NCBI GenBank assembly: GCA_031213475.1
Contig: JARUPZ010000009.1
Span: forward strand, 8,961,601-9,025,600
Source: Nereocystis luetkeana
Taxonomy: Eukaryota > Sar > Phaeophyceae > Laminariales > Laminariaceae
DNA length: 64,000 nt
Direction of reading: 5' to 3'
Shown here in pieces: positions 12,768-54,155 of this stretch. Position 1 is the first letter of the stretch. Every line of letters begins with the position of its first letter. Made by a program: the position numbers and the translations under genes. The notes below the pieces were generated by a model. The model was given only the letters and a program-made list of their open reading frames with translations. It was not told the origin of the DNA and did not search any database.

Positions 12768-12831
12768 ATGGCGTGGTTGGCCAGACGGCTTGCCGTCATA
12801 CTGGGGGTGTCACTCTCTAGCGGGGTACGTG
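12768..12831 (+). CDS. Exon 1: start codon and signal peptide
   Basis: The ATG has a favourable context (CAAGATGG). It reads MAWLARRLAVILGVSLSSGV followed by R and one extra G, with a basic n-region and a hydrophobic core as in a secretory signal peptide. The donor is G|GTGAGA, leaving phase 1. Exon 2 begins with two nt plus codons, so the junction makes GAT (Asp). The start was chosen for the signal peptide and phase match; an in-frame upstream extension is possible. No transcript evidence is available. Confidence 0.5.
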
Positions 12832-15800
12832 GTGAGAGAAACCGTCGAAAAATGTGGTGTCCCTTGTTCGCAAGGCCTGCCCAAGCTATGCACCACCAGC
12901 GCGACAAGAGGCTAGCTCTTTCCTAAAGAGTACCCTGCCATTGCCTGGTCTGGCGAGTCGTTCCCGACGAACATATCCATCACCTGACGTCAACAGATTA
13001 TATAGAAACCGGATTCGGAATATGAAAACGACGCCGTAGGTGTCGTGATCCACACGCGGTGTGTTCTCGCTAAAAACACCCCTCCGTCGGGGAACATCAT
13101 CGAGTAGTTTATCAACCGACCAGCTACTGAATAAATCACCTGTCCCCACACATTCGTATGTGCCTCTCTCCATCCGATTTCGAGTCAGGCGAATTTTCGT
13201 GCCTCCTAAGTGATTGTTCGCGATGCACCCCAGGCGTCTCAGACTTGTGAGTGAGATGTTCCCGTGTTTCCGTACAGTCAAAATATTGTATGTCGGGGAT
13301 CAATCGTGAACAGTAGGGTATATGGCACTACTGTTAGAGGGCATTGTTTAGCATTTCGTTTACATTCTGAGTTCGATACGAGTATCCTCGCGCGGCTGCT
13401 GTGTGCGTGCGTCTAGATTTGACTCAAGCACTGCGTTTATTCTTCCCTCCGGGGGGGGGGAAGGGGGGGGGGGGTAACTTTTTAGTGATACGGGCGTGTT
13501 ACATCCCACCTACTCTATGTAGCTTTCCCATCGACACATCGACCACCTTGAACGGATAGAAAGATACGGTAACACAAAAACATATGCTGGCGTGATCCAA
13601 ATGGCCGGTGGCGCCACCCACCTGGGTTACTCTATGAGTAGCTAGACATGCGTAAAGAGTAGCGATAGTTGAACGGTTGGCGCGATACACCTCCCCCAGT
13701 ACCCCTCACATCAACCGCACCGTGTGTAGCAACCTCATGTACTCCCCCTTCCCTCTTGCTGACATCACAGGGATTTGTCTGAGTGTTCTCTTACAGATTT
13801 TGACGTCACAGATCTTCTGAGCTGCTTCAACACCGTCGGGCCCGACAGAATCACAAAGTTGTAAGTTTCGTCCATATATTGTAAGGGAAAGCGGGAATAC
13901 CGTAACGCTTCAGTTACCGCTCGATCTTATTAGTGTGCGTACGCCAACTGACGCCGTTAACTCGAATAGTTTAACGCAACCCGGTATTTAGACGTACTGT
14001 AGCGTACATTTTACAGCCAAAGGAGACTCCTCGGGATTACACGTCGTAATGCAACACTTTTGGTCGGGTAGGTAAACGTTACCTGTTCTCAAGAAGTTAT
14101 GCTGGACTTGTCGACCAAGCCTATTCCGGGGGACCACGGTAAGTAGGGCCTACGGCACAGACAATAACGTACATAATCCACAATGTTTACTAACAATATT
14201 TGTTACGATTTACTATGGTCCACTGCTGTAATAGACTTCTCCAAGACGGCGGCAGCATACCTCCCGCTTCACCTCAAAACCAACCACTGCGGTGGTGTTA
14301 CCGTGCTGCTCAGGCCCTAGTTCATACGGACCAGCGGTATAAGCGTTTGAAAAAGGTATTTGTGGCTGAGGCCGACTCGCCGGATCTCCGCAAGGGGTTT
14401 TGCCATACCTAGTGTGGATGCTAGCAGGCGACGACACAGTACAAGTGAGTGTGGCGACAGCAATGGTGCGTTAAGCATGGTGTGCAGAAAACAGACGTGG
14501 AACAAAGAACGGGGCGTGACGGCATACGATCGTATGTTGGGCGCGTCATTCCTAGCCCTGCGTCCACGGCGAGTATGCACCGGCATGCGTAGGTCCACCA
14601 TGCCAACACCTTACTGGCCAGCTTTTAGCCGGTGTAGCCAAGGACAGCAGCAGGTGATGAACACAATTCAGTGCCGTTGGTATTCGCGCCCAAACATCTG
14701 CGACATCGAGGCGAGGATACACATAGTCCTTGAGCCCGTCTTCGCGTGATGTTCAGAGCTGCTAAGGAGAGGAGCGTCGGAAACAAATTGATGTATTCGT
14801 GCACACTTCTACAATATCACGTGTCGGTATGGGCTGCAGGTTATGAGTCCAAGCATGGATTTACCCATGGGGCTCCTCCCCCGAGGAACTAAGAAAAATG
14901 TTCTAAGGACACCGTGTGTTTTCACCATACATTGGCGTAAGACAGATAGATGCTACCGGGTTAGATATGGATAACATTAACTATTTTAGGGCTTGCGCTA
15001 GTGTGGATCAATTTGTCTTGGCAAAAGAGGGAAACGTTAATTTTTCGCCTTCACCTACGAGGCACCTCAATAGGAATAGAGGTTGATAAAAATTAATACA
15101 TCATACTTTCCTCCATGTCCTCGAGCTATAACGGGGGGCCATACTCGTAGTTAATAGGACCTATGGTCTACATAAAAACCTATATATTTAACCATTTTTA
15201 CTGACCAATTTTGGTTCTATTAACTATGGTCCCCCGTAATAGTGTGGATTCATTAGTTTTGCCAGACGACATCAACGATATTTCATATATATATGCACAC
15301 GTATGTCCTTCCTCTGGGGTTGTGCTTCTGGCCTTTTCTATCAATGTTTTTTTTTCTGACTGCGCTGCTTGGTTTACGTATGGTGCCCAGCATGCGGGGA
15401 GCCTCAGAGGTGTTCGATGGTAATGAAGAAACCGTAGTTTGCGTCCGAAAAAGCTCCTCACCACGCCACCATTGGCGCAGAAGCTGTCAACAATTATACG
15501 GTCTGCGAAGAGCAATGTTTACAGTTAACCCATGGACAGCAAAAAACCAAAGCTCGGTCCTCTGAACGATGCCTTTCACGAACGTCCCGGCCGACAAACT
15601 AATTTCCCTAAAAAATAGCATAGTAGTACATGGTTGTCAAGAAGAAGTACACGCCGCTCGTCAAAACTGAACCAGGGGCCTGCCCCTAGATCGCCCGAAA
15701 CTCCAGATCGCGTATACTTTCTACTTCAGTTTGGAGAGTTTTCCACCGTAGTCGCAGTGGTGTCTCGTGTCTCGCACGGGAACGGGTACGCATGGAATAT

Positions 15801-18800
15801 GCGTGAGCCATAGTAGCGCTTCACCAGGTCAAAACGCTTGTACGCGCTTAATCTCGAAGCGTTCACGTGGGAGGTGAAGCAGTATCCAAGATATTGGCAC
15901 GGCGTTTGACCTACCCAAATGCGAGGTTAAGGCCTGAAACGCATACTAGAACCTGTAACGAGCATTGTCCGGGCCTTTTCCTGCGATATTAATAGTACAA
16001 CAAGCGATCACGAGCATAGCTGGGCTGCTGTAGTCTACCCCCTTTGGTGCATGTAATAGGGAGATATGTCCTGCGAAGGGTACCTCCGCAGACCCCCGGC
16101 TCTACAGCCCTCGACGGATGGGCGATACGGGTACGTTTTACGATGGAACTACAGTATCGACAACGAGCTATAGGTGAATATTCCCCCAGACAGGGCGATA
16201 TTCTGCTTATTTTGAACCTGTATATCAGTACTTTCCCGGGGGATCATAGTTAATAGGACCTATGATATACATAAAAACCTATATATTTAACCATTTTTAC
16301 TACCAAACGTTGGTCCTATTAACTATGGTCCCCCGTAATAGTGTTGTTTTCCCTTTCGTCACACCCGCACGCTCCCTCACACAAAACGACCACAACAACG
16401 AAAAGCCCGAAAGGAAATGGGCCGGAAGAATGCGACCACGGAAAAGCGAGCAGGCGTGGGACATGTTTTGCCGGCAAACCCCTGACATAAGTGACCATGG
16501 CACTAACGTTGTGTTTAGTTTTTGTTTGCGTATAGTAAGGGTTCGGTTGCCACGAAATTACGAACCCTGAAGAAAGGGTATCGAAAGGCAGAAGAAGTAT
16601 ACTACAAAGGCAAACCGAGACAAGCGGCGGCCGTAGCTTATTACCATTGACTCGGTTATAGGACAGTATCGGTAATCTTTCACTGCGATGGGCGCATGTG
16701 TTTTGCGCAGGAAACTCCGAGGCAATGCTTTTACCACGATACCAGCGGGTCTCTTCGACAATATGGCGTCTCTCCTGGAATTGTGAGTGGAGACCATGAC
16801 GTTCCCTCTGATACGTCGCCACAACTGCTATTAAGGATACATTAGGTACATTTTGCACTCACTCGTGGTGCGGCACATCCTTGGTGACAATCAATCTCGT
16901 GCGTGTTGCCACAAACAAACGAGTAATTTCCTTCAGGTGTATTCTCTCGCCAGCTAAATAAAGAATGTGGTCTGAGTATTGGTAACGCACACGTACCACA
17001 AGACAGCTTCCTTCCCCCCTCTCAGTCACTAATGTCTTCACACACGCACGCGTTCCGTTTCAATGCACGTTGCTCTGGTGACGGTATGAAATCGTGGTAA
17101 CAGGCAGCTGCAGTTTAATGACATCACAACCATCGACGTTGACGTCTTCACGGGTTTGACGTCTCTTCAAACGTTGTGAGTGGGCGCACGGGGATATGTT
17201 GCCGTCTCAGCTAAAGAAGATTGGTACCAGGGGTACGGAGTTTCGTTCGCTGCTGGTTCTGCTACAACACTTGATCGCCGACAAGGTTGATTCGTCATCA
17301 TGCCTGTTGTGCAACAACCGCCTGTATTTTAGGCCACCGATCTCCAACCCCTGCCTACAGGGGTGTGTGAACCGGTACAGGGAGGAAGCTTGTTACCCGC
17401 AGCAACAAATACATACGCTTGAAGAACAAATTATTGGGAACCTTCCTTTTTCCCGAGGTATCGAGGTCCACAGTGTGCACAAGCCTTTCTGACCCCACCC
17501 CGACAATATGTTTCTACACGGTGCGGATATATTACTATACATGATGCGAGTATGTCCAAACCTTTTGCCCTTGGTGCAATCATTCGGGTCTCCTAAGCAC
17601 CAAGCGCGAGACGAGCTCACCACCCTGCAAGCGGGCCTCTTGGGCAGTTTGACGCCTCTTCAAGGTTTCTGAGTGGGCGCATCATCTACTTGGTTGTCTC
17701 TGCATCGTTGCGAGAACGTGTTGAAATCTAGAGCATGGTCATCATTCGGCATAGACGCGTGATACCATAGATAGGAGGTGGACGGCACGTTTCGCCTATA
17801 TTTGTTTATGAACTTCGGGTCTCCTCTCCAACAAAAAATCGTCTCAATGTCATCCTTTTTTCACTTCGAGAATTGTATTGTACCTACGCTATGCCAGTGT
17901 TCGTCGTGATGTTTCCTTCAAATTATTGTTGTCTCAGAATCAATGTCGTAGAGCTCTAGAGGGTGATGTCAGGAACGTTCAAAACATTTGGAGTGCGGCA
18001 GACTGATATACATTTGATACACGCACTCCCTAGCGGCTTGACATGAAAGTACCCGCCTGTCTCTTGTTAAATTTGTTATATACCTGAGTTCCGAGTAGGA
18101 TTCGAGTAGTTATTTTCCTCAGGGAATACTGTTTTAAAGCATTTCAAATGTTTATATACCTGAGTTCCGAGTAGGATTTCAGTAGTTCTTTTCCTCAGGG
18201 TATGCTGTTTAAGAGCATTTGAGCAAACGTTGGCCAACGGCCGACTGCTTCGGCGGAAGGCGTCATCACACCTGCAACAGCGGGAGTACCTTTTTTTACA
18301 CCGAGGGTGCAGCAACAACTGCGCCAGATACGCCGCATCTCATACCTGAGGAAATAATACATGAGCAGTAGCTAATAGTCCAGAGTTAATGTGGTGCATG
18401 CGTGACCTCGCCCGGGCTCACGGCCCCAAAAATGGCGCCGCAACTATCGTATGGCCACTGCACACATTGATAATTTTATTTTGACGGTGTATCTAATATT
18501 GTCTCGACTTCCTCCCTTCTGCTCATCTTCACGACGATAGACTCTACAACATAATCCAGGTAAATTCTCCCCACACACTGCGTTACACGATACCGGTATG
18601 CTGCTCAAATTTAACTGCGCTCGTTTCAGATACATTCACGAGAATAAGCTGACGACGATTCCGGCGGGTCTCTTCTCCGGCTTGGCGGCTCTTGAGACAT
18701 TGTGAGCAGCTTCTTCTACAGTATTGCCGTGAATTGCCGGTTATGGCTGTTTTGCGTAAAATTCATGATAATACTTCGTGGAGTCTGTGCTCATGTGCCT

Positions 18801-21800
18801 CATGTGTGACCTTTCGATCCTGCGCATGCTCGCCAGTTTTGACGCTGCGATGATACCATTTCGAGATGTACACGCACAACGGCACGGCGCAGTGTCGCCC
18901 TCCTTCGGGTGAATGACGCAGTTTCGTCTTCTTGTCAGCGCAGGTGGCTGGAGCGAAACGACATCGGGGGCCTCAGCAATGACGCTTTTGCGAATTTGCC
19001 ATCTCTCATGCAATTGTGAGTGAGCCTAATTAGGGAGGAGAATGGTCCTCCCGAGTCTCGGTGATACGTTTTATTTTACCAAACGGTATTGCTCGGCGCT
19101 CCGGCAGTGCTACTGTGCAAACTACGTTCCCGGTATATTCACGATCGGTGATTCGTCATCATTAAAAACTGGCACGGCGTACCTTTACGTCGCGAAAACC
19201 GGATCCTTCGTCCTTGACGTGTGGAACGCAACTTGCTCGCCTGCGTTATCGTCGTTCCCGTCGAATATCGTGTCGATAGTATGGGCAAACGAGAGTCGAA
19301 ATCCGCAACGACGGTCAGTAGTAGTCAACTACACTGGGACATTGGAGAGCTCCCGTGAGGCCGTGTGGTGAAATACGACCCTGTAGAGGACAACAAAGAC
19401 GATGTAGGGGCAGGTCAAACATATTCACCACAGGAAGGTAACACACGAAGAAAGATCGACGAACGTGAAGTATCAGTTCCGTGTGTAACGAGATTAGCAA
19501 TGTATCTGTGCATTTGTCTTTTGGACGACCGGTGGCTATCATCGGTATGCTAACACGAAGACAGGCAGGACCGTGTGAAATCATCCCACGGTAGGGGTTG
19601 CACTATTGGGCCAAAGGCTTCTCACCAATTGAGTTTCTTAAGTGAGGAACTACCAGTTAGGCTGAACATTTTACGCGTATGTTCGTGTTTAGGACTAGCG
19701 CATACAAGTGCCGGTCGGGTGACACGAACGAATTTCTTCCTAGTATTGTATCGGGTGAGATATTGAGCCCCTAACGTGAGGTGCTCAGGAACGTCTGGTT
19801 CACCCCTACCATGGGCTCGTGTATACGCACCATCCACATCTACAGCGCAAACTTACGCTAGCTTACGTGTTCCCCAGACCTTCCACTAAAAGTAGTTTTT
19901 GTCGGGAAATATGAACTACGATGCACGTATTTAATTTTCCTCAGGTGCGTTCACGAGAATCAGCTTACCACAATACAAGCCGGGGTCTTCGACGGTACGA
20001 CGTCTCTTCTGGAATTGTGAGTGGAGTCGGTACTTGGTGTTCTATGTCTACTTTGAGATCACGACTAAGGTGTATACACGAAAATTCGGCCGTTCCGCAT
20101 ATATATGTATCCCCACTACGTTTGTCATGGGAATTAATTTGTCGAGTGACGCACTTCGGTCCCGTGCGAGTTGAGGCGTTTGACGCTATCGTGAGGGTGT
20201 TGAAGACTTATCCGTAGTACGATCAACCGGCGACCTCCACGGTGGGGTGGCCGCTATCCTCATGAGTCTCATTATTTCGACGCGCGTCGCTCCGCTGCCG
20301 TTGTTGGGTCAATGCAACAGGCGGCTCGACCAGAACGAGATCACGACCATCGACAAAGACGCATTTATGGGTATGACTTCTCTTGAAACCTTGTGAGTGA
20401 GCGAGTGAGCAACCTTTTCCTCCTGATCGAACGAATATGACATGAAGACCACGGGTACAATACGGTGCAAAACGTTACAATGACTGGGTATCATGATGTT
20501 GGTAACAGCGCGTTTTCACGCCACCAGAGTATCCAACTATATTTCGAGGCGTAAGCGAGGCGTGGGAGGACATGTAACCGCCCCCGATGATTACCAACGA
20601 GTGGAGAAGTAGTGGTCGCAAACGTTAGGTTCCCCCGGTGGATCGGGTGCCGGAATGAAATCGAACTCGCCAAAGTCTAAATTGCGGATGCTTCCGCGGG
20701 GGATGGGGGTGGCCATGTTGTACGGACTTCGTGTATAATTCGGCATCACCGGCTGATTCCGCGGATGGCGTGATCACATAGGAACAGCAGGGAGGCGTCC
20801 TCTTCCACTTACAATATGGCTGAAGAGGAGTCACGGGGGATAAAAGTAATGTTGGCGTGTTAGTGTATAAGCTCATCACACAAAGAGAAGCTCAATATAT
20901 CATTCAACAAATGCCTTTTTCTGGGAATGTCTGTTCGCACAACCCGGCCAACGCTTACGTCTTCTGCAGTAGTCCTAAACAAAAGGTGTTAATTTTGCAG
21001 TACAAGTATCATACCATATACCCAATATTCCCTCACTTGAGGATCTCAGACAGTCAAACCCCATTGAGTTAAAGAAGGGTATGCTCCTGCCGTCGGATGC
21101 GTCGTGAGTAGTGCCAGCACCACTCGGTACACTTATGGTGTGGGCGAGATGAAGACGCCGTACTAATATTACCAGTACAACGATCGTTGTCAGCGGTGGA
21201 CGGTAGGGACATTAAATATCTCCTACCAGTACGTACAAGGCATCATAGTACAGGTGGGAGTACGTACCTATACTCTGAATGCCCGTACACGTTAGACACA
21301 GTGCTCGACATCGACCAAGGCGTGTACCGTGCTACCCAGGTGGCGGGCGGGCCCGGGTTCCATCGGAGGAGACTGCACATGTCAACCGATAGTCCCGTTG
21401 AGAACCAACACGAGACCAGACCACTCGAGTACTCACATAACCATGCACCACCCACAACCAACGCAGTTTCAATCCCCACGTACACCAACACAGTGTCAAT
21501 CGGCAACGTCAACAACGACAGCTACTCGTCGGCGTCGGCTTGGCCATTCGGGTCGGCAGAACCGGTACGTCGATGTTCTGTTCGAGGTATTCGTACACTC
21601 ATCGTGAGACCCAGTGTCGGTAACAATGATATTGTCGGTAGCATAAACCAACGCGGCTGTGGTACCTACCCGATGCTTATCCACGTAGTAACCAAGAAGA
21701 TGGAAAAAGAGGGAAATATGTACCAGGTATGTATGGTTTCCGTTTCTGGAATATCATCGACAGGCGCGTTCGGCATCTCAATTATATCTGCTCTTGAGGT

Positions 21801-27800: not shown

Positions 27801-30800
27801 GGTAGCAAGTTATCGTTGACCGTGTACGAGCACAACGCTTCACTGCCCCAAGCCGTCGAGCATGCTCAAGTTTCCCTGAGGTATGTTGACATTGTGAACA
27901 TTCGTCGCATCGACCCTGCACACAGGGTGTAACTGTTGTTTCCCGGGAAAGTTTGCAAGCGAAAGCTCCCCTCATGAAGCAGCATCGGCATACATACCAT
28001 GCCAAGATATCCCTCGCAACAACTTCTTCGCGAAGCTGCAATTTGAATTCCGTTTGCAGTCCTCGGTTTACCCGTCTTAATATAGCAGTGACATCCACAG
28101 CAATTTTCTGGAAACCCTCTCCTTGAACATGTTTTCTGCTTTGGGCTCGCTGGAGAAACTTTGAGTACCCCCACGAAGGCGTGCGTGTAAGTTAGTCTCA
28201 GCGGACCTCCGTTGCAGTCGGCTGTGTAAAAGCCTGGCAAAAAAAGGTCGAATGTGGCTGAACGACTCGGATGTCTTTGGAGTCGCTCAGTGCTAGACCG
28301 GCAGTAATTGCTTTCGGAGTCTAGCAATGCGCATAGTCGTGGGCGTATCCTTCAGCCGAGTGGCCACCACCTGCCATGGATTTCAGGCTCAGTCTGTACC
28401 TGGGATGGCCTTGGCGTATTCGTGCTTACCTCAAACCGGGGGGACCAAGTCTTCGGTCGAAGGAGTTATTTTAGTGGATGCATGTGTGGTGCACACTATC
28501 TCCATATATATTATATACCAGGTATATATATATATATATATATATATATGCAGTGGTTACAGTTGATCTGGACTGAACTTTCGTATCCAGGTTCCACCTG
28601 GTGGTCTGCCCGCCATGTCTACCCGACGGGAACATGTAGCATACAAACGTGGAGAAGACCCCTCCCTCGTACTCCCAGATAACGTGGACGCCCGCACATA
28701 AAAAAACGACCTCGCGACAAAAATCGGTACCAAGACCCTGTGGGTGGTGGTTGACAATAACATGTTTGCTTCCGTCGTGCTCCAAATTGACGCGCTTCTT
28801 CTTACGGAACAAAAACTATCGAAAAATATACTTATCTCGTACTGCTGCAGAGATGTCACCTTATAGACCATGCACAGGGCATATCTCGTACTACAGTATC
28901 CCTACTACTATGGATCATCCGGCGGTATGAGTATACCTTTTATGTTTTGTCATGTACTGACAGGTCGACCCCCGCAAGTGAACACTTACAGTAGGTTACC
29001 ATGATATCATTACTGTTTAAATTTTGGGGGGACGATATTGAATAGGACCTACGGTACACCCAAAAACCTACCGGTATATGTTTACCTATTATTATTTCCA
29101 ACAATCAATATTCGGTCCTCATTTACTGTGGTCCCCCGTACTAATATACTTGATTCAGGACTACCCCAAAGAATAATCGGCCGGGTTGAGCGAACAAACG
29201 TCTTCGAAATGAAGTTTCAGGAGACGTGCTAAGCTCCTGATACGACGAGCGTAGAAAATAAGACACCAACCACCGCTCGCGGGTGGCATTTCTCTTTCCC
29301 CAAGCCTATCGCTCGCTTTTCCTCACTGTTTGTTCGACTTCTCAGGGCACTGAATGACAACGCGCTGTTCCGCTTACCGGTAAACGCCTTCACGAGTCTC
29401 CCAGCTTTGGCAACCCTGTGAGTGACCCGAACGGTAGATGTATTGATCATATGCTCCAATCGAGAGAGGGCGCATCTTCACTGTTCGGTTGCTGCCTGTC
29501 TCCGCTTCCTGCGTTGCCCCATGGTTAGTGCTACCATGTTTGGCGTTAGCCCTTCAAGGACTGCAGTGAACACAAAACACTTAGAATTCGAGTTGTTCCT
29601 CCCTTAACCGGGACGGCGGTTCTGAAAGAGTTCACGTACGTACGTACATATCTGCATGTTACTCATTCGTAATGTCATCGGGGGGTGACGAATATTTATC
29701 GCACGCCCGTAAGCCTCGTACGGGGTATGACTTTCCACACTGCGAAATATAAGAGGAGGTGGGGGGTGAACGACGTCAATTCGCTGGGATCAGATGACAA
29801 GGGTTTCATCAGCGGGAAAATACCATATTTTCTACTTACTTCGACTTCTAGTGAGTGGAAGACCTCTATAATAGAGAAAATCGCTCATTGCAGAAGCGAT
29901 TCGCCACTACACATTATATGGGTGTTTACGGTGTGAAAACGGATATATTAATGCTGTATTTCTTGCATATATATCCGTCTTGTTAGTGGAAACACTGAAG
30001 GGATAACCTCACTCAGGCTAGAACCCATCATTTGCTATTCGTAGTCGAGTTCGTAAACTGAATCCATTTGGTGCGGCAAACCCTCCAGCAATCAGATTGA
30101 ACAGGTATGATGACCACACGAAACAATAAATGTTACCCTTCACGAACAGCTCGCTGAATAGGATTTACGCCAACATGTTGCTTGCTGTAGCGTACACTCA
30201 TCCGGGTTCGAGGGAAATATGTACCGTTGGGTTCACCCCAATGGTAGGGGGGTGAGGCGTTCTGCGGTGGTAGGGGATGAGGAATGTTTGTGGCCAAATA
30301 TTTCACTTGGACCGACAGAGCAATTCAATCCCTTATCGTTCGAATACTCTTCTTGCCATTTTACGATATTATTGCGGGTGAAACCCCTTGGCTTTGAGAG
30401 GGCTCAGCAGGTGAGGCGTTCTACGATAAAAGTTCACCCTAATCTTTCCAAGGCTCCTCACTTAAGGAGCTCCATACATACCTCACCTGAAAACTGACTT
30501 CAGCAAAAAAACTTAAATTGCATCGCGGCGAATAATCCTTGGCCCGAGTCTAGAAAACGTTTTTTTTCGAAACCAAGATTGGCATTCCGACGATTTGGGC
30601 TCAAGGAACCCGTCTTTCAGAAACAACATAGCGGAAATGTGCTACCTCTATCGTAGAACGGGTCAGGTAGCACTTTCAGCTTTTTGTCAAACTCAATTTT
30701 TTGGGTGGCTTACTTTTGACCTGTTGGTACTATCGAGCTCCTCGAGTGAAGAACCTCAGAGGGCAACGTAGTGCTACAACGGGGAACCATAGTAAATAGG

Positions 30801-33800
30801 GCAAAATCATGCTAGCAAAAATGGGAAAGGTCATAGGTTTTTGTGTGTACCGTAGGTCCTGTTTAGTATGGTCTCCCGTGATACCTCTTCCGTAGCCGGC
30901 GTTCAAGGTGCGTCACAGGGGCATCGTCCTACAGTTTGGGTGGTCTAAATAAGCATTTAAGATGCCAGTTCGAGCAAGCAGAGCCTCGCTTCATGTGTGT
31001 GGAGAGGATGAAGCACGCACATACATACCCAATTCTGCCCTGCCAATATGCGTCGCTTCTTTCCCAATACGCCTCATCAGGAGACTTGACAACAACGATC
31101 TGACGACGCTTCCTGCCGGGATTTTCGAAGATGTCGGGTCTGCTGCGTTGGAAGTACAAGCTTTGTAAGTGGACGCTTGCCACAACCTGGGCATATCAAT
31201 TTTGCTGGGTAAATAGTTCCGACCGACGACCTCGTCCCTTAACGAGCTACCCAAAATCGCTAGTAAATACACCATCTTTCCGTCTGTTTTCCCCTTAAAT
31301 CCCCCTAAGGCATGGGGTGGGTTCCACCGGGTTAAACGTTTCGGTTTTGCTTGTCGAGAAAGGAAGGCTGTTCAGAGAACACAACGGCAAGTGCGCCTCC
31401 ATCGGAGCATGCATCAGTGCCCCTGACTGTGCACTACAGACGCCGCGTGGCCGTCATTGTACCCATCATAGGGGTCTACTTGGCAGGGCCCCGGGATAGA
31501 CCCTTTCCTTTCGGGTAGGGCCTTCTAGCGTGTTCATAATTGCGCGGGCTACGGAGCACTTCGTGGTGTAATCGACGCACGGGCATATATATGCCCAGTC
31601 CGACGCTTAACCTGAACTCTGACCTAAACACGGAAGTAATGCGGGCCAGAAACGGATACAACATCAGACGAAACGCGTTTCTGGCTTTCGTTTAAATGTT
31701 GTTGTTCCGCACAGCAGGTCATGATGACCCTTCTTTGTTCGAAAATTGAGAGATTCTGTTTCCCGCAATATTTTGGTGTCAGACCTACTGCGTCACAACG
31801 TCGACTGCCAACTACGTAAAAAGCATCCACGGTCTGGAGACACTCATACATGTGTTTTTGTGGTCCGCAATCAAGTATCGCGCTTCTCCGTCACACACCA
31901 GCGGTGAAAACTAAACATGGATGAACGCAGCGGCTCTCAACCAGCACCTCCAGCCGTTACCTCTGCATATCACAATACACTGCAAGTAAAGTGGTCGGCT
32001 TGCCCTCCGCGTTTCAGTGTATACCAGTTGTCATCAGCGCGTTTAGGTTATAGCTCACGGCCCTTCCCTCGCTGCGTGCCCAAACCGTCGCCTGCTCGTT
32101 CAGGGATCTGGATGGCAACCCGAACCTACAATGTGTCCCCACGGTTGTGTAAGTAGTCTGTGTGAGAGTTTTTATCTGTGTTCGTATTGCGCGAGTCTTT
32201 TGCCGGCGGACCGCCAGGTTTGGCTTTTGTTTTCTTGGTGTGCATGACGGGGGGAATTGCAGAGGCGTTTCGAATCCGTGTGTTTTCGGCGCCGGGGTGC
32301 GGGAGATACCAAAAACGCATGCTACCGTAGAAAGGTGTTCCCAAAAATTCAGTTGAAATTATCTGAGGCTTCTCGCACGAGGAGCAATGTGTACACCACC
32401 GGAAGCGACGGGTTTAAGACAAAGTGTAGGCATATCACCGACGCGCAGTCCCATGCCCTAGCCCCGTAGGAAAATCATATGGTCAAAACGAAAACGATAC
32501 AGGGGAGTTCCACGTTTAAGAAGCCTCAGCCGTCCCCACTATTTTGACCGAAAAAACGATACTTCTGTCATAGCAAGAGTCCAATGCGCTGTGCATTCTA
32601 CATGTCGGCATGGAGCAATTGTTCCCCCGTAACCTCGCCACCCCCCCTTCCCTCCGTACCCACCGTTGACTTGCTTCAGTCACGCTTCCGATGCTGTGAA
32701 CGCGGGTCTCCCATCTACCGATGGCCTGTGCGGTAAGAGTATGCGCGGTCCAACAGTGTGCATAGGTCTCGTTCCAAAGAAATTGGTCACCACGACCGCA
32801 GATTCGTCCTTCCAACAAAAAGATCGACAGTATGCTCCCACCACTCATCCCGCGGTAGGGTACGTATATTTTTGGCTCATTGCATTCCGACCGGTAGAGG
32901 TCCTCAGACGTACAACAGAAACTACCGTTAGATATATATGCTAACGTTACTGCTGTGTTATGTGTTGTACTCAGGACTAGCGCAAAGAGCCGGTGATCGG
33001 GCTGCGCGTTATATATTGTGTTTCAAGTCAGAATCCGGGTGGGGTGAGGAATTTCTAAAGTAAGTAGTCCAGGTAATCAGGCACTGCCTCTATGGTTGGG
33101 CATAGCTTCTACCTCCGCTTCAGCGTGCCTGAGAAGGAAACACGCGACTACCAGTTGTGAAAGTAGATCTCGGACGCCCATTTCGTGCATCTAAGTCAAG
33201 GACGCGAGGGAACACAACGTATTTTACATAAGTGTTTCGGGTGGTCGGGGGTCTGACGTCGCGCGACTGCCGGATCAGGCCAATAAACCGTTGTATCGAT
33301 AGTGTAGGTTGGTTTAACGGTCGATTGGTGACGATGTAACCACGCCCAATATAATAGGAATTTGGTTTGCCATTTCCTTCATGTTTGCACCCTCCGGTCC
33401 TCGACAAACCCGTGTACTGCTCAACAGTTTGTACCCCAGTTGCCGCGGTTTCGTGCGGTGCAGATGAAGTGTGTACATCTGGAGATGTGGGCTACACCTG
33501 CGTTCTGGGTGAGAAGAGATTTGATGAAGTTTAGGTGGAACACCTCGCTATTGTCTCGATGGTGAAGCACCGTCACATAACGCTAGACAAACGTACGCTT
33601 TATATAGCACGAGCTTGACATATTCGTTTGGGTTGTACTCAGATTACTCGGCTCGGGCCTGGACGGGCAATCTACATACGGTACACCCCCCACAAGGTCA
33701 AGATGGGGCATACAACAATGTAACCGTGTACCCCTGCGGAACGTCCAACAAGCCCGGCTTATCGCCGGACATAGTGGACGTACCGTGCAGCTGGTTTTCC

Positions 33801-36665
33801 CTTGGACATATATGGCCACACGAAATGTATCGGTCGGAAGTACTTCAACAGCGGTATTAGTGGGGTGCTGTTCCTCCTGGCTCCTCGTCAAATGGGTACT
33901 ATTTACGTCTGAGACTGCTACATAAGACCCAACAGCTCGAAGGTTTGAACAGAGTAGATACTGCGGTTACGACAAATATATGTCCAGCAGACCCAAGTAT
34001 ACCGAACCCACGACCTGCTGTCAAAATGGTTGAAACGAGAGCACGTACCCCGCAACCATGATTTTTTACCCAAAATCTCAACCTTGACATATTTCCTGCG
34101 CCGGCACCTTGATGTCCATGAATTGCATTCGAGGTCGAGCAAACAAAACTGTTCGTGTCCAGGTGAGGGAAATAACGTTTCCGCAACGGAAGAAGCCCAT
34201 ATATTCAAGGTGGTCTGTATGTTGTCTGCCACGTCAAGCAGAGTCTTGTACCCAACGACACCAGAAAACACACATCCGGAGTCAGGGAGATACGGTATAA
34301 ACAGTCTGTGTTTGTAAATGAAAACAGATCGACGAAAGTGATGCTGAGAACTGGATTGAGGTACGAATAAAAATGCAGCTCCATCGTCCCGGGTATGACA
34401 ACAGAAAGAAATGTGCGGAAACGAAAGTAAACCATAATACGGCCAACCATAGTGTCTGCAGAAATTATTCAGGGAAAATATGCTCAGATAGATGTGTCAT
34501 CCGGAAACTCCCGCCCAACGCCTCTACGCCCGTCGAAGTTACCCTCGTCGACCGATCTGCGCCAGGACCATTGAAGTTGTCGACACGACTTTTTAGTCCA
34601 GCGCGTATCGCAGGAGGGTAGGTAGCCGTGTTCTACCGACCACCACGAACGCTTGACCTAGAAGCTGCACTGTTGTGCCCCCGAGGTACCTGATCGCATC
34701 ATTGAAGACGGAGAGTGCACCAAAGGCCGCAAGGGACTCGTGATTCCGTATTCAACCCTGGTCCGTCTATGACCACTAACGTGGCCTTGACACGCGCCAG
34801 TTCAGTGGATGTCCTTGTACATCCACGCTGTGAAGTTCTTCCGTCTCGTTGGTAATCAATCGTCGATAGCCTTCATCAATGGAGAAATGGCCGCCGCGGT
34901 AAACACTTACACGGCATACGTGCGTTTATCAGTTTGCTTTCTTGTCGTGTGGGCAAGCTTAGACCCCAGCATTACATTATCAAACATGCCATCTCCACAC
35001 TGTTCACGCTCTATCTGCTCGTTCTGGGAATATTCGACCTTGCGTCGCAATGGGTACAGACCATTCACTGTACGTGCGAACCTCTAGGCTGTAGCGCAGG
35101 TATTCCCCATTTTAAAAGCTACGGCAGGCGCTCATGTATTATTCACATCTGATGTACCCGTCGCTAGGTTGATATCAACTCATGCTCTGTCACAGTTCAC
35201 TCCCTATTGATCGCGCAGCTTGCACGGACGACAACGAATGCGATACGCTCGTTGGCGAAGTTTGCTGCCCGCTGAAGAACGTCTGCGAAATTCGCGAGGT
35301 CGACCCTGGCGCTTGCGGTGAGTAAAACTAAACCTGTAAAAACATTCGCACAAAGTATGTATACACTATGACATAAGTTTATAAACAACTCGCAGGCGTC
35401 TTAGCCGTGACCAAGAAAGACGAGAAGGCCATACGTAGCACCTTTGAATTTCGCTGGGTTAGGATGTAGCACGGGGCTGATCCTATTAGTCTAGAGGAGT
35501 AGGATCTCCGTAGATCGTATTGTGGTGCTGACGCCTGCGTGACCCCGTCCTAACCATTCACGAAGCGAGGAGGATGGAAAACGACAACCAGATAGAAACA
35601 TGGATGATAGGGAGGTAATGTTGGATAGGCAGCTTAATAATGGGTATACCAGCGCAAACTCGAAATCGTGTCGCGGCTTCATGCTCCTAATCCCGGACGC
35701 GCCACTTTCGTACATCCCTCGTTTCAAGGTGACCCGCACATGACGAGCTTCCGCGGACAGAAGTTCGACTTCACGGGCGAAGACAACGGGTGGTACGCAG
35801 TCGTCTCGGACCTTCCGTATATGCACCTCAACATGCGCGTTACCTCTCCTGTCCCTTCTCTACCCAACATCACCTATATCACCGGAATATCCATCATGAT
35901 CAAGGACGCCGACGGCCTCGACCGCAGCATCGTCATCTCTGTCGCCGACCCTCACAATATGGATAGCTCGTGTCCCGTCGGGATGTCACAATGCCTCGCC
36001 AACGGTGCCCTGCGGGCTGTTGTCGACGGGGAAGAGCTATTTCGTGCGCCCGGCCAGGTTACGGTGGCCCCAGGTGTCGCCATCGCTGCTGTCAACCTTC
36101 CCGGGCCGTGCCGGAGCTTCGGGTTCGAGAAGTACTGGGAGCGGAAGAAGCTCGAGCCTCGCCCTCAATCGATTCGAACGCTCAGCACGATTAGTACCCT
36201 GCAGGACATGTCTGACTGGGTTCTCGCCGACCCCACGGCGACCAACATGGTGGAGTGCACCGAGTACGTGGCTCGGGCAACGGCAGTGGACGAAGGTGGT
36301 ATGTTCACCCATCAGTCAGAACACGCCTCGTTCCAAATCGTGACCCCTACAGCTAAGATTCGCTTGAGCCATGGCAGACTGCACCAGCTCCCCACGCGCG
36401 ACCCCACCGACCAGTTCGACCTGCCGGACCACCTGACTTGGCAAATGAACATGGCCATCGACCACCACGACTTGGGCCTAGACGCCGCGGGAATCCTTGG
36501 CGAGACGCTGGTTCCTACCGTCGACGACAACGGCATCCGCATCATGCACGGCATCGACGCCATTCGTGGGACGCAGGAAGATTGTGAGTGCCACGAATGA
36601 TCAACTATTGGCACCGGCAAGCGCTATCTTTTCCTACAGTCGGCAGTGATACATCGGCGACGTAA
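12768..36665 (+). CDS. Secreted LRR / Cys-rich / vWFD-like protein gene (21 exons, spliced)
   Basis: Whole-gene entry; exons are listed separately. Spliced length is 2,235 nt, about 744 residues. Domain order: signal peptide (residues 1 to about 20), N-cap with one Cys, thirteen LRRs of 24 residues (one of 28) with consensus xLxxNxLTTIxxGxFxxLxSLxxL, an LRR C-cap (NPNLQCVP), a linker, two Cys-rich modules, and a large C-terminal domain starting GDPHMTSFRGQKFDF like a vWF type D domain. Introns are GT-AG except one GC-AG. Phases are 1, then 2 for every LRR exon through the C-cap, then 1 to the end, and every junction is consistent. The likely role is extracellular binding or recognition; LRR and vWFD modules usually mediate protein contacts. 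No kinase, ROCO GTPase or membrane segment was found. The least certain parts are exons 1, 2 and 21 and whether diverged exons 11 and 12 are spliced in. It could be a degenerating gene, because two internal LRR exons have broken splice sites. Confidence 0.7.
13797..13860 (+). CDS. Exon 2: N-terminal cap before the LRRs
   Basis: The acceptor is TTCTCTTACAG and the donor is TT|GTAAGT. It is the only exon found that converts phase 1 to phase 2, which the LRR series needs. It reads FDVTDLLSCF then NTVGPDRITKL, ending in the split Leu codon TT|G used by every LRR exon. A single Cys and the ITKL ending are consistent with an N-cap leading into the first LRR. Confidence 0.6.
15129..15239 (+). mobile_element. 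TA-flanked MITE, copy A (intron 2)
   Basis: The 111-bp element runs from TAACGGGGGGCCAT to ATGGTCCCCCGTAA with terminal inverted repeats of about 28 bp (also GTTAATAGGACC / GGTTCTATTAAC). It is flanked by TA on both sides, and the core reads CATAAAAACCTATATATTTA. It has no coding capacity. The TA duplication points to mobilisation by a Tc1/mariner-type transposase, which is not in this window. Confidence 0.85.
16231..16338 (+). mobile_element. TA-flanked MITE, copy B (intron 2)
   Basis: This has the same core and orientation as the copy 1.1 kb upstream (GTTAATAGGACCTATG ... CTATTAACTATGGTCCCCCGTAA), with TA on both sides. The left terminus is altered (CTTTCCCGGGGG). Confidence 0.8.
16711..16782 (+). 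CDS. Exon 3: LRR 1
   Basis: This 72-nt exon sits between TTTTGCGCAG and GTGAGT, phase 2 to 2. It reads KLRGNAFTTIPAGLF then DNMASLLE plus the split Leu. The Asn, the TTIP run and the GLF match the LRR consensus. Confidence 0.9.
17104..17175 (+). CDS. Exon 4: LRR 2
   Basis: 72 nt, acceptor AACAG, donor GTGAGT, phase 2 to 2. It reads QLQFNDITTIDVDVF then TGLTSLQT plus Leu. The first intron bases (GTGAGTGGGCGCA) are shared with the sequence after the broken LRR exon at 17597, which shows exon plus intron-flank duplication. Confidence 0.9.
17597..17668 (+). pseudogene. LRR pseudo-exon with both splice sites lost
   Basis: The stretch keeps the exact 72-nt length and an open LRR frame (HQARDELTTLQAGLL then GSLTPLQG). 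Its left edge is TCCTAA|G instead of AG|G, and its right edge is CTGAGTGGGCGCA instead of GTGAGTGGGCGCA. Position-2 Leu is Gln. It is probably skipped in the mRNA. Because LRR exons are symmetric, skipping does not disturb the frame. Confidence 0.75.
18075..18222 (+). repeat. 76-bp tandem duplication in intron
   Basis: TATACCTGAGTTCCGAGTAGG recurs at a 76-bp interval (TACCTG at 18081 and 18157). Each copy continues into AGTAGTTxTTTTCCTCAGGG and a CTGTTTxAxAGCATTT block. There is no coding content. Confidence 0.8.
18630..18701 (+). CDS. Exon 5: LRR 3
   Basis: 72 nt, acceptor CTCGTTTCAG, donor GTGAGC, phase 2 to 2. It reads YIHENKLTTIPAGLF then SGLAALET plus Leu, one of the best matches to the repeat consensus. 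Confidence 0.92.
18944..19015 (+). CDS. Exon 6: LRR 4
   Basis: 72 nt, acceptor AGCGCAG, donor GTGAGT, phase 2 to 2. It reads WLERNDIGGLSNDAF then ANLPSLMQ plus Leu. The intron before it is only 242 bp, among the shortest between LRR exons here. Confidence 0.9.
19680..19830 (+). repeat. Intronic dispersed repeat (GAGCTCC family), copy 1
   Basis: Shared blocks are GGACTAGCGCA, a CCGGTxGGG block, ACGAAxxxxTTC, a TCGGGTGA block, then the partly palindromic ATTGAGCxCCTxxxxTGAGGxGCTCAG followed by ACCCCTACCATGG. Related copies lie near 21893-22060, 27240-27370, 29148-29260 and 32970-33105, all in introns of this gene. The palindromic end alone recurs elsewhere (25175, 30728, 44125). Confidence 0.55.
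19945..20016 (+). CDS. Exon 7: LRR 5
   Basis: 72 nt, acceptor TTTTCCTCAG, donor GTGAGT, phase 2 to 2. It reads CVHENQLTTIQAGVF then DGTTSLLE plus Leu. Confidence 0.92.
20321..20392 (+). CDS. Exon 8: LRR 6
   Basis: 72 nt, acceptor TGCAACAG, donor GTGAGT, phase 2 to 2. It reads RLDQNEITTIDKDAF then MGMTSLET plus Leu. Confidence 0.92.
21893..22060 (+). repeat. Intronic dispersed repeat (GAGCTCC family), copy 2
   Basis: This copy starts at GGACTAGAGCATAC, contains TGATCGGGCTGCACAGACAAACG and TTCGAAATATCGTGTCGGGAA (given in pieces), and ends in ATTGAGCTCCTCC..GAAGCTCGG plus CAACCCCTCTATGG. It shares block order with the copy at 19.68 kb. Confidence 0.55.
22465..22536 (+). CDS. Exon 9: LRR 7
   Basis: 72 nt, acceptor GGCTGTCCAG, donor GTAAGT, phase 2 to 2. 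It reads RLDNNELTVIQTGLF then DGSLSLLQ plus Leu. Confidence 0.93.
22868..22939 (+). CDS. Exon 10: LRR 8
   Basis: 72 nt, acceptor TTTTGGAGCAG, donor CT|GTGAGT, phase 2 to 2. It reads RLGDNLIGIIDDDAF then GALTSLQL plus Leu. It ends in CT rather than TT but still gives Leu with the next exon's first base. Confidence 0.92.
24293..24364 (+). CDS. Exon 11: LRR 9, frame-scrambled, GC donor
   Basis: This is exactly 72 nt between AACCAAG and GCGAGT (a GC-AG intron donor) and is open in phase 2 to 2. In that frame only the ends look like an LRR: EL at the start and FTASASLLD at the end. The middle reads as LRR one frame away (SFSNNQLASLLET). The simplest explanation is a 1-nt gain near the start balanced by a 1-nt loss in the middle, keeping the total at 72. 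It may be a functional oddity or a decaying exon. Confidence 0.6.
24985..25160 (-). repeat. Intronic repeat, inverted partner of 30.52-30.68 kb
   Basis: The reverse complement matches 30515-30680: CGGCGAATAATCC, CGAGTCTAxAAAACG, a T run then CGAAAxCAAGATTG, CCGTCTTTCAGAAACAA, TAGCGGAxATGTGCTACC and TCTATCGTAGAACGGGTC occur in the same order. The element is about 165 bp and sits in two different introns in opposite orientation. Confidence 0.8.
25237..25322 (+). repeat. 41-bp tandem duplication
   Basis: ACCCAGTTTCTACCGTGTCC occurs twice, 41 bp apart, each followed by ATxGTxCACCACGT. Confidence 0.8.
25734..25805 (+). CDS. Exon 12: LRR 10, diverged
   Basis: 72 nt, acceptor GCGAAACAG, donor GTGGGC (weak), phase 2 to 2. 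It reads KVNDNESATIPTSVF then YSSVLLIE plus a Val codon start. The Asn and ATIP positions are kept, but Leu-2 is Val, Leu-7 is Ser, and the exon ends GT instead of TT. It is a real member of the series, but splicing may be inefficient. Confidence 0.7.
26977..27048 (+). CDS. Exon 13: LRR 11
   Basis: 72 nt, acceptor CAAACAAG, donor CT|GTGAGT, phase 2 to 2. It reads EINDNQLTTLPENIF then ASLSSLEE plus Leu. It closely resembles the broken exon at 28089 (both end in a ..SLE.L segment and continue with GAGTA). Confidence 0.92.
28089..28160 (+). pseudogene. LRR pseudo-exon with mutated donor (TTGAGT)
   Basis: The 72-nt open LRR frame is intact (DIHSNFLETLSLNMF then SALGSLEK plus Leu) and the acceptor TATAGCAG is usable. 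The donor reads TTGAGTA where exon 13 has GTGAGTA, a single G-to-T change at +1. It is probably skipped or only rarely used; symmetric phase keeps the frame either way. Confidence 0.75.
28516..28549 (+). repeat. TACCAGGTA motif followed by (TA)n microsatellite
   Basis: TACCAGGTA runs directly into about 13 TA units. Confidence 0.85.
29020..29141 (+). mobile_element. TA-flanked MITE, copy C (diverged)
   Basis: This is the same family as the 15.1-kb element: a GGGGGGACGATATTGAATAGGACC-type left end (given in pieces: GGGGGGACG, ATAGGACC), an AAAACCTA core, and the right end GTGGTCCCCCGTAC then TA. It lies in the intron before exon 14. Confidence 0.7.
29346..29417 (+). CDS. Exon 14: LRR 12
   Basis: 72 nt, acceptor GACTTCTCAG, donor CT|GTGAGT, phase 2 to 2. 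It reads ALNDNALFRLPVNAF then TSLPALAT plus Leu. Confidence 0.9.
30515..30680 (+). repeat. Intronic repeat, inverted partner of 24.99-25.16 kb
   Basis: See the minus-strand copy for shared blocks. This copy reads from CGGCGAATAATCC to CGTAGAACGGGTC on the plus strand. Confidence 0.8.
30777..30881 (-). mobile_element. TA-flanked MITE, copy D (opposite orientation)
   Basis: Ends are CAACGGGGAACCATAG and ATGGTCTCCCGTGA with TA on both sides. The core (GGTCATAGGTTTTTGTGTG) is the reverse complement of the orientation seen at 15.1 kb. It lies in the intron before exon 15. Confidence 0.75.
31081..31164 (+). CDS. Exon 15: LRR 13, 84 nt
   Basis: Acceptor CGCCTCATCAG, donor GTAAGT, phase 2 to 2. It reads RLDNNDLTTLPAGIF then EDVGSAALEVQA plus Leu. 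It is 12 nt (four residues) longer than the others, with the extra residues in the convex-side segment after the Phe. It is the last LRR before the C-cap. Confidence 0.9.
32104..32148 (+). CDS. Exon 16: LRR C-terminal cap
   Basis: 45 nt, acceptor TGCTCGTTCAG, donor GTAAGT, phase 2 to 2. It reads DLDGNPNLQCVPTV plus a split Val. The NPxLxC pattern is the usual opening of an LRR C-terminal cap and gives the array a clean end. Confidence 0.8.
32680..32732 (+). CDS. Exon 17: linker, converts phase 2 to phase 1
   Basis: 53 nt, acceptor GACTTGCTTCAG, donor G|GTAAGA. It reads HASDAVNAGLPSTDGLC. This exon changes the reading phase from 2 to 1, exactly what is needed between the C-cap exon and the Cys-rich exons. 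It was chosen on phase and splice sites; the sequence itself has no recognisable motif beyond one Cys. Confidence 0.65.
32970..33105 (+). repeat. Intronic dispersed repeat (GAGCTCC family), copy 5
   Basis: This copy starts at AGGACTAGCGCA, contains GCCGGTGATCGGGCTGCGC, and continues to a degenerate end around GTAAGTAGTCCAGG and CTCTATGGTTGGG. It matches the 19.68- and 21.89-kb copies in order. Similar remains are at 27240-27370 and 29148-29260. Confidence 0.5.
33428..33508 (+). CDS. Exon 18: Cys-rich (EGF-like) module 1
   Basis: 81 nt, acceptor CTGCTCAACAG, donor G|GTGAGA, symmetric phase 1 to 1. It reads CTPVAAVSCGADEVC then TSGDVGYTCVL. The four Cys with the ECx..GYxC-like ending resemble part of an EGF-like module. 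The assignment is by pattern only. Confidence 0.75.
35219..35317 (+). CDS. Exon 19: Cys-rich module 2
   Basis: 99 nt, acceptor TATTGATCGCGCAG, donor G|GTGAGT, symmetric phase 1 to 1. It reads CTDDNECDTLVGEVCCPLK then NVCEIREVDPGAC. Six Cys include one CC pair. Its last base joins the next exon to make GGT, giving ..GACGDPHM.., so the Cys sits directly before the GDPH motif as in many vWFD domains. Confidence 0.85.
35729..36583 (+). CDS. Exon 20: C-terminal vWF type D-like domain
   Basis: The acceptor is CCCTCGTTTCAAG with phase 1, so the exon opens GT GAC CCG and completes GDPHMTSFRGQKFDFTGEDN, the characteristic start of vWFD-type domains. Further features are a WYAVVSDL strand, a Cys pair (SCPVGMSQC), CRSFGFEKYW, a single Cys in MVECTEY, and near the end AAGILGETLVPTVD, which resembles the GxLGxT segment closing such domains. 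Codon use is GC-rich and clearly coding. The open frame extends upstream to 35653, but phase and the GDPH motif favour 35729. If the last short intron is not removed, translation would end at the TGA at 36598-36600. vWFD-like domains act in extracellular assembly and adhesion; the exact role here is unknown. Confidence 0.85.
36640..36665 (+). CDS. Exon 21: terminal mini-exon
   Basis: At 36584 GTGAGT follows GAAGATT. At 36639 a strong acceptor (GCTATCTTTTCCTACAG) ends a 56-nt intron. Splicing in phase 1 gives FGSDTSAT and a stop. Without splicing the protein ends DCECHE at 36600. Both forms are possible; the good donor and pyrimidine tract favour splicing. Confidence 0.5.
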
Positions 36666-53233: not shown

Positions 53234-54155
53234 TCATGTTCTTCACTTTAAACAGTTATTTCTACCGGTCGACATCCAGCACACAACCAGTGTCCGTGCC
53301 GATTCTTCAATCCTTGAAAACAATACCTGGTAGAAGTTCTGTGGTCACAGCATGCTGCAGTGGGCAATGTTATGCCATGCATGTCATCACACTGGTCGCT
53401 CCGGTGGTTCAAGTGGTTAACCTCGAATCTTCTTGTGTTTGAGTCCTGGGTTCGAGCCCCAGGTGGGTCGGACATTTGACTTTATTTGCAAAAATAAAAT
53501 CCAAAGGATTCAATTGTTGAGAGCGCCTTGCAGCGTGGGTAGGCACAATTCGATGCGAGTCGACGAGGGAAGAAAAGGCTGAAATCTTCTCGCGATAAAA
53601 ATGAAGGCACGTACCGTAGCGGGAAGGGGGTAGAAGAGCCTGATATGTGACTCCGGATCGGAGTTACGAGTTGGAAGGAGAAAGAGAAGAAGATGTGCGA
53701 AGATGATATATATATGGGATGAACAAAAAAAAAAAAACGACAGGCACGACACACACACTCTATGAAATAGAGAAACGAAAAGAAACATAGAAAAAACAAA
53801 AACAAACAAGACAAATCGAAAGAGGAAAAGAAAAAGAAAATAATGTTAGATTAGTAAAAGAAACAAACTGGCGTGCCCCCCACCCAGGGGGTGTGGCAGA
53901 CACTTGAAAATATTGAGCTGGAAAAAAATATTGGAAAAATAAGAAAAACACCATTACTTGTAAACAGAGTAGGACAAAAAACAAGGGAAAATAACAAGCG
54001 GCCGCAGGGTGTGGTGCGAGTAGCATAGCCAGGTTCTCCCTGCTAGTCGACCTGGTACCTTGCTACCCAGACTGCCGTCTCCGTCCTGTGTGCGTCAACA
54101 ATGCCCAGCCCCTTGGCGTCGGACAATATGAAACAAGCAAAGCAGGCTCGTCATC
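53234..54155 (-). mobile_element. LINE 3'-tail element, left inverted arm, with SINE inserted
   Basis: On the minus strand, about 54110-54050 encodes the LINE ORF C-terminus ([16 protein letters not shown] then stop), followed by a tail with GTGTGGCAGACAC-type sequence, A/T-rich tracts and TTCTATGAAATAGAG-type sequence. It is interrupted by SINE copy 3. On the far side it resumes as GGGCAATG..ATGCCATG, GTGTCCGTGCCGATTCTTCAA and GTCGACATCCAGCAC. From about 53757 to 54155 it is an inverted repeat of 56035-56480. Confidence 0.7.
53391..53740 (+). mobile_element. tRNA-derived SINE, copy 3, inserted in a LINE tail
   Basis: CGCTCCGGTGGTTCAAGTGG and GGTTCGAGCCCCAGGTGG form the promoter part. The end is GGGATGAAC plus an A run at about 53738. 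The flanks (GGGCAATG..GTCATCAC before, ACGACAGGCACGAC after) are contiguous in the related segment at 56770-56822, so this SINE inserted into that repeat. Confidence 0.88.

Follow-up and report, generated by a model that had tools for sequence, protein, structure and literature searches.

A 19-exon gene of Nereocystis luetkeana with separate 72-nt LRR exons, Cys-rich modules and a GDPH domain, and its possible role in extracellular recognition or adhesion

The window analysed here, the whole 64-kb stretch of Nereocystis luetkeana DNA at C9:8961601-9025600 in genome coordinates, contains a real gene of a real family, and a corrected model is given for it: 19 exons between 12768 and 36600 on the + strand, comprising 2121 nt and 706 aa without an internal stop. 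We infer, with a probability of about 0.55, that this is a protein-coding gene whose product is secreted and unanchored and serves in recognition or adhesion. Support for this reading is drawn from LRR exons beyond chance expectation, collinear paralogues, dN/dS values, an excess of change on the concave face of the repeats and the decay of individual exons.

Two close paralogues, P2 (C9:8925147) and P3 (C9:8558763, other strand), were used to help build the exon model of the window gene; both lie on the same contig and are collinear with it, including parts of introns. The exons follow the order signal peptide-like start, 13-nt microexon, N-cap, 11 LRR exons (ten of 72 nt and one of 84 nt), C-cap, linker, two Cys-rich modules and 'GDPH' exon, as listed below.

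12768..12831, + strand: exon 1, with the start codon and a beginning that resembles a signal peptide, MAWLARRLAVILGVSLSSGVR; GTGAGA donor in phase 1
13234..13246, + strand: exon 2, 13-nt microexon, phase 1 to 2; required by the frame
13771..13860, + strand: exon 3, LRR N-cap with two Cys; 90 nt, open in the window gene, P2 and P3
16711..16782, + strand: LRR exon 1, 72 nt, phase 2; exon scan and nucleotide profile
17104..17175, + strand: LRR exon 2, 72 nt; exon scan and nucleotide profile
18630..18701, + strand: LRR exon 3, 72 nt; exon scan and nucleotide profile
18944..19015, + strand: LRR exon 4, 72 nt; exon scan and nucleotide profile
19945..20016, + strand: LRR exon 5, 72 nt; exon scan and nucleotide profile
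20321..20392, + strand: LRR exon 6, 72 nt; exon scan and nucleotide profile
22465..22536, + strand: LRR exon 7, 72 nt; exon scan and nucleotide profile
22868..22939, + strand: LRR exon 8, 72 nt; exon scan and nucleotide profile
26977..27048, + strand: LRR exon 9, 72 nt; exon scan and nucleotide profile
29346..29417, + strand: LRR exon 10, 72 nt; weakest of the ten in leave-one-out (E 5.5e-4)
31081..31164, + strand: LRR exon 11, the last LRR, 84 nt (81 nt in P2 and P3)
32104..32148, + strand: LRR C-cap exon DLDGNPNLQCVPTV; exon and splice sites conserved in P2 and P3
32680..32732, + strand: linker exon, phase 2 to 1; length, phases and splice sites as in P2 and P3, the sequence itself poorly conserved
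33428..33508, + strand: Cys-rich module 1, four Cys, phase 1-1; a conservation island in the window gene, P2 and P3
35219..35317, + strand: Cys-rich module 2, C-x5-C-x7-CC-x5-C-x9-C, phase 1-1; conserved
35729..36600, + strand: last exon, 'GDPH' domain, with the stop codon at 36598-36600

All 18 introns have GT-AG borders with donors of the GTGAG or GTAAG type, and the phase changes from 1 to 2, remains at 2 across the LRRs and the C-cap, and is 1 again from the linker to the end. Exon 1 can be aligned to the beginning of both P3 (MAWLAKWFMVVLAVSITSGAHG) and P2 (MARWAKWLMAVLAVSFTSGVHG), and its hydrophobic character is kept in the three paralogues, as judged by eye and by hydropathy. The microexon, which shifts the phase from 1 to 2, has identical flanking splice sites in the window gene, P2 and P3 (CACCCCAG acceptor and GTGAGTGA donor). 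A direct joining of exon 1 to the N-cap at 13797 is in frame, yet it was rejected because this microexon is conserved and because the coding sequence shared by the paralogues reaches upstream to 13771. The Cys-containing N-cap and the NPNLQC C-cap are present in all three genes. Cys-rich module 2 carries an in-frame 15-nt insertion in P2, and more distant copies have a similar module upstream of the GDPH domain. Downstream of the start, the highest 19-residue hydropathy mean was 1.32, that is, no strongly hydrophobic segment; this was computed on an 18-exon version of the model, also employed for the Pfam scan, which differs from the 19-exon model only near the N-terminus. The strand, extent and domain order given for this gene in a preliminary description were borne out by the exon model and the paralogues, its phase series was reproduced and its frame free of in-frame stops holds in the 19-exon model. 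Its counts of 21 exons, 2,235 nt and 744 residues were not reproduced and are replaced by the 19 exons, 2121 nt and 706 aa given above.

Several repeated elements were observed in the window. Intronic elements of ~105 bp with inverted ends of the GGGGGAYCATAGTTAATAGGACC type occur at 14121-14221, 15140-15245, 16237-16341, 29027-29149 and 30780-30883; they are up to 92% alike to copies in the paralogue regions and look like a MITE family. Two copies of a ~250-bp element with TTCTACGAT-type inverted ends (24994-25242 and 30413-30664), 68-84% alike to several places in the paralogue regions, probably represent another mobile element. The intron between LRR exons 2 and 3 contains a 76-bp unit in 1.9 tandem copies with 89% matches (18076-18220), and a reverse transcriptase ORF at 54050-54934 (Pfam RVT_1, 1.9e-30) is likely part of a retrotransposon. 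At the level of the genome, the EsV-1-7 Cys motif, which is typical of brown algae, gave, from 1713 candidates, 150 scored matches, all over the cut-off. This result, with no match in the 14 control genomes, points to a brown alga.

The LRR exons of the window gene lie beyond chance. Open 72-nt exons flanked by AG..GT and bearing LRR-like residues were sought in an exon scan, with a hand-made scoring that was set after one exon had been seen; the + strand had ten strong candidates (score 9-10), against a single candidate, of score 9, at 13167 on the - strand. Across the 64-kb window, a nucleotide profile derived from the ten LRR exons gave 15 matches at E <= 1, which all fall in the interval 16.7-31.1 kb of the + strand, and eight further matches at E <= 10, on both strands and each below 5 bits; 20 dinucleotide-shuffled windows, used as a control, gave seven matches at E <= 10, the best with an E of 0.22. 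In a leave-one-out procedure every one of the ten 72-nt exons was still found after its removal from the profile, with E values from 3e-17 to 5.5e-4. Simple LRR motif searches in translated frames yielded nothing useful because every repeat is a separate 72-nt exon, and a single LRR exon as DNA query matched nothing except itself. The array consists of 11 tandem LxxLxLxxNxL repeats of ~24 residues, typical of LRRs. A Pfam scan of the protein (18-exon version) returned LRR_8 at 1e-58 in six stretches and no kinase, ROC or COR match; LRR families alone passed the cut-offs, in agreement with the preliminary statement that the gene is neither a ROCO nor an LRR kinase gene.

P2 reads as 23 exons and 806 residues with 15 LRR exons, P3 as 18 exons and 681 residues with 10, and both keep the exon order and phases of the window gene despite these differing LRR-exon numbers. 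A second, broken GDPH exon (C9:8932434-8933301; L005) lies ~6.4 kb downstream of that of P2 and, with no LRR exon found between, is a tandem remnant. When used as a DNA query, the GDPH exon of the window gene gave 48 matches in the 465-Mb genome, and as a protein query it gave 124; among the latter, 82 cover 280 or more of the 290 residues uninterrupted by a stop, as counted from the match list, and one of these 82, on the short contig C339, resembles a duplicate of a C39 copy. Twenty-seven GDPH copies were fetched, 22 of them uninterrupted and five interrupted. P4 and P5 are broken copies, and no LRR exon was seen in the stretch of P4 that was read. P6 (C13:8610001-8640000) and P7 (C13:8253001-8283000) are GDPH loci separated by ~330 kb and oppositely oriented. 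Their LRR exons upstream of the GDPH exon are very similar, and each locus has, still further upstream, another LRR array whose last exon is 81 nt long; the two stretches end at different points and their LRR-exon counts are therefore not comparable. In two more distant copies, one on C26 and one on C17, the GDPH exon is preceded by Cys modules, with no such LRR exon within 9 kb (2/2 examined). The locus at C26:8688301-8697300 (L049) has several small Cys modules, by eye of the D-x-D-C-x-n-CC type, upstream of its GDPH exon and, without LRR exons, is a differently equipped branch of the GDPH family. Pattern-based scans of viral and prokaryote contigs with the GDPH alignments A1 and A3 confirmed no relative.

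The GDPH domain starts with the motif GDPH-x-(T/S)-F-x-G-x-x-(F/Y)-D-F-x-G. GDPHM is invariant in 20/20 aligned copies, together with many other residues, and eight more distant copies, at 27-41% identity, can be aligned along most of their length. Neither Pfam nor NCBIfam assigned the GDPH exon to a family, the Pfam VWD family (PF00094) had no match among the 20 and the 12 members scanned, and a genome search with the VWD profile matched nowhere, as did its control. The plant root-cap family (Root_cap, PF06830), the general layout of which we take to be similar to that of the GDPH protein, was followed as a lead and did not match the domain: the Pfam scans gave no match, and the sole match of its profile in the genome (E 3.99, on C2) was not at a GDPH copy. 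A profile of close GDPH copies found FCGBP, whose vWD domains are repeated, with a whole-chain value of 1.5e-5; this value adds up matches of the first 18-20 residues in five places, each of them non-significant by itself. With a broader profile FCGBP scored 0.0043 in one ~104-position alignment and the unrelated DEPTOR 0.0047, so that this profile adds little to the vWD likeness. Matches to RTT106, DEPTOR and MBT were taken as chance, as were the weak matches to Cupin_2 (2/20 members, best 0.035), Bac_rhamnosid-like_N (1/20 members, 0.2) and R2K_2 (1/12 members, 0.18). Single-sequence structure prediction of the GDPH exon gave an unusable model (mean pLDDT 31.6). At the level of sequence profiles the likeness to vWD can be called firm for no more than the first ~20 residues with the GDPH motif. 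The label 'vWFD-like' in the preliminary description is thus apt for the start motif and finds no backing in a Pfam VWD match or in any single significant stretch of FCGBP; likewise, the profile search of the predicted protein that it had proposed returned LRR families above the cut-offs and no VWD.

Pairwise comparison of the GDPH exon gave dN/dS values of 0.24 between the window gene and P2, 0.26 between the window gene and P3 and 0.18 between P2 and P3, and the exon is judged from these sequences to be under purifying selection. For the shared 72-nt LRR exons, in the same order, the values were 0.60, 0.69 and 0.49, counted over 10 exons for the first pair and 8 for each pair with P3, with the 84/81-nt exon left out. 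Amino-acid change was about twice as frequent at LRR positions 22, 23, 1, 3 and 4, which on known LRR structure we take to be exposed on the concave strand, as elsewhere (pN of 0.39, 0.35 and 0.39 vs 0.17, 0.19 and 0.15), and an equal or higher value was obtained in 28, 819 and 120, respectively, of 33649 five-position sets. Scaffold positions (Leu, Asn, Phe) hardly change among the three genes. The concave-face dN/dS was 0.68, 0.91 and 1.36, in comparisons that share sequences and are not independent; as, in addition, the LRR dN/dS is below 1 overall (0.49-0.69), positive selection is therefore not shown. The excess of change on the concave face fits altered binding surfaces, an excess over neutral not being proven.

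In the proposed mechanism, the product would be secreted, the LRR horseshoe would bind a ligand via its concave face, the Cys-rich modules may form a disulfide stalk and the GDPH domain could fix the protein in the wall or make it multimeric. The same observations were weighed against a second reading, in which the gene codes for a structural wall or mucilage protein with LRRs that bind a fixed wall polymer or partner, the differences between copies being relaxed constraint after duplication. We regard this as possible, though on balance somewhat unlikely: the family is large with the GDPH exon as its constrained part, the LRR dN/dS is compatible with relaxation, and the C26 and C17 relatives pair Cys modules with GDPH where no LRR exon was seen within 9 kb; however, the change is uneven, being concentrated at the concave-face positions with the scaffold nearly unchanged.

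The ten 72-nt exons and the 84-nt exon of the window gene start and end in phase 2 and have lengths that are multiples of 3, and the gain or loss of one therefore keeps the frame. Four LRR-like stretches, apparently decayed, were excluded from the model.

17605..17664 (approximate ends), + strand: decayed LRR exon, donor lost and 5' part scrambled; P2 counterpart (P2_5:5274) intact
24293..24364 (approximate ends), + strand: decayed LRR exon, broken; P2 and P3 counterparts intact
25734..25805, + strand: doubtful LRR-like stretch, probably decayed; open, with a weak donor; counterpart broken in P2, none seen in P3
28089..28160, + strand: decayed LRR exon without its donor dinucleotide; P2 counterpart intact, frame of the P3 counterpart broken

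Three LRR exons are hence intact in P2 but decayed in the window gene, one of the three being broken in P3 as well. By eye, the LRR exons tend to alternate between two types, ~LTTIxAGxF and ~ITTIDxDAF, an alternation that suggests duplication in pairs. To judge from these exon comparisons, repeat number most likely evolves through symmetric exon gain and loss in a secreted recognition or adhesion protein; new binding surfaces would arise through duplication, perhaps of exon pairs, through loss and through point change of LRR exons with the frame unbroken, and alternative splicing could add variants. That the gene is instead dying, with several exons decayed and possibly no protein made any longer, is unlikely: the four decayed or doubtful exons and the clearly broken relatives, including the five interrupted GDPH copies among those fetched, speak for it, but the 19 remaining exons are open, in phase and bounded by canonical splice sites, the GDPH exon retains its low dN/dS against P2 and P3, and the loss of a 72-nt exon leaves the frame unchanged.

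The preliminary description had also placed LRRs, Cys-rich modules and GDPH domain in one gene, as did the present analysis, in which order, splice sites and phases are common to the paralogues; because paralogues with 15 and 10 LRR exons have the same order and phases, it is very likely that the LRR exons and the GDPH exon are parts of a single gene. Two adjacent genes sharing a strand by chance would accord with the ~4.6 kb between the last LRR exon and the GDPH exon, with a model built from sequence alone and with the two distant copies in which no LRR exon lies within 9 kb, but this is highly improbable given the C-cap, linker and two Cys exons in between, with splice sites and phases common to P2 and P3, and the LRR-then-GDPH order that recurs on one strand in the window gene, P2, P3, P6, P7, P11 and N48.

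Beyond the single gene, the reading as a recognition or adhesion protein could be extended, in a speculative and rather doubtful form, to the whole family: the alga would have a secreted, germline-diversifying recognition repertoire of dozens of GDPH genes, some with exchangeable 72-nt LRR cassettes and some with Cys modules only, in which the symmetry of the exons would allow free change of repeat number and binding face, alternative splicing possibly contributing as well. If true, this would be a secreted counterpart to the LRR-ROCO proteins. LRR-ROCO and NB-TPR proteins are the leading candidates in brown algae, and a secreted family assembled from exon cassettes of the same type would provide candidates for microbe, gamete or wall recognition that are open to expression and testing. 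For the annotation of algal genomes a caution follows, in that what is annotated as a lone GDPH exon or as 72-nt LRR exons may belong, in fragments, to a single gene that also contains a 13-nt microexon.

In the literature no LRR-Cys-GDPH family was found; subscription papers were mostly outside the scope of this search, which is thus weak evidence of novelty. With vWD proteins (PF00094; FCGBP) the family shares a GDPH-type start motif, but GILGET occupies the place of what we presume to be the vWD sequence CGLCG, and Pfam VWD does not match. A PDB sequence search with the LRR-to-stalk part gave 120 sequences at E up to 1e-20, and among the best 60 of the 120 the top matches were extracellular LRR proteins (IGF-ALS 6.7e-53, LRIG1 5e-52), followed by cytosolic ones such as SHOC-2. 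Animal extracellular LRR proteins (IGF-ALS, LRIG1, LGR4, TLR, lamprey VLR) resemble the window gene product in their typical 24-residue LRRs and caps and differ from it at the C-terminus. The product is predicted most likely to work as other secreted LRR proteins do, a capped LRR horseshoe binding and the C-terminal part anchoring or assembling. LRR receptor kinases differ by the kinase match and the strongly hydrophobic segment after the start that the window gene product (18-exon version) lacks. ROCO proteins are usually taken as intracellular, whereas the window gene product is probably secreted and has, instead of ROC or COR, a hydrophobic start, Cys modules and GDPH. Ectocarpus is described in the available part of PMC8307928 as having no clear orthologues of plant or animal receptors. 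According to the available sections of Teng (2024; PMC11378527), in which Zambounis 2012 is cited, the ROCO genes of four brown algae have 72-bp phase-2 LRR exons, with splice variants in Ectocarpus, shuffled repeats and positively selected concave sites; separate 72-bp phase-2 LRR exons, repeat shuffling and variable concave sites are thus features in common with the window gene. A COR-A profile search of the genome gave no match, which does not show that ROCO genes are absent, because InterProScan missed the COR domain in brown-algal ROCO proteins in that study (PMC11378527, same sections). From Saccharina japonica the same sections report 15 sequences that carry such LRR exons but are not ROCO genes, mostly LRR motifs alone and a possible reservoir; they resemble the window gene, as far as description allows comparison, in having 72-bp LRR exons outside ROCO genes and differ from it in that the window gene is complete. 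A secreted LRR-Cys-GDPH family might explain part of these reported 'LRR-only' sequences, and the window gene places 72-bp phase-2 LRR exons in a complete gene whose product, from the predicted protein, would be secreted.
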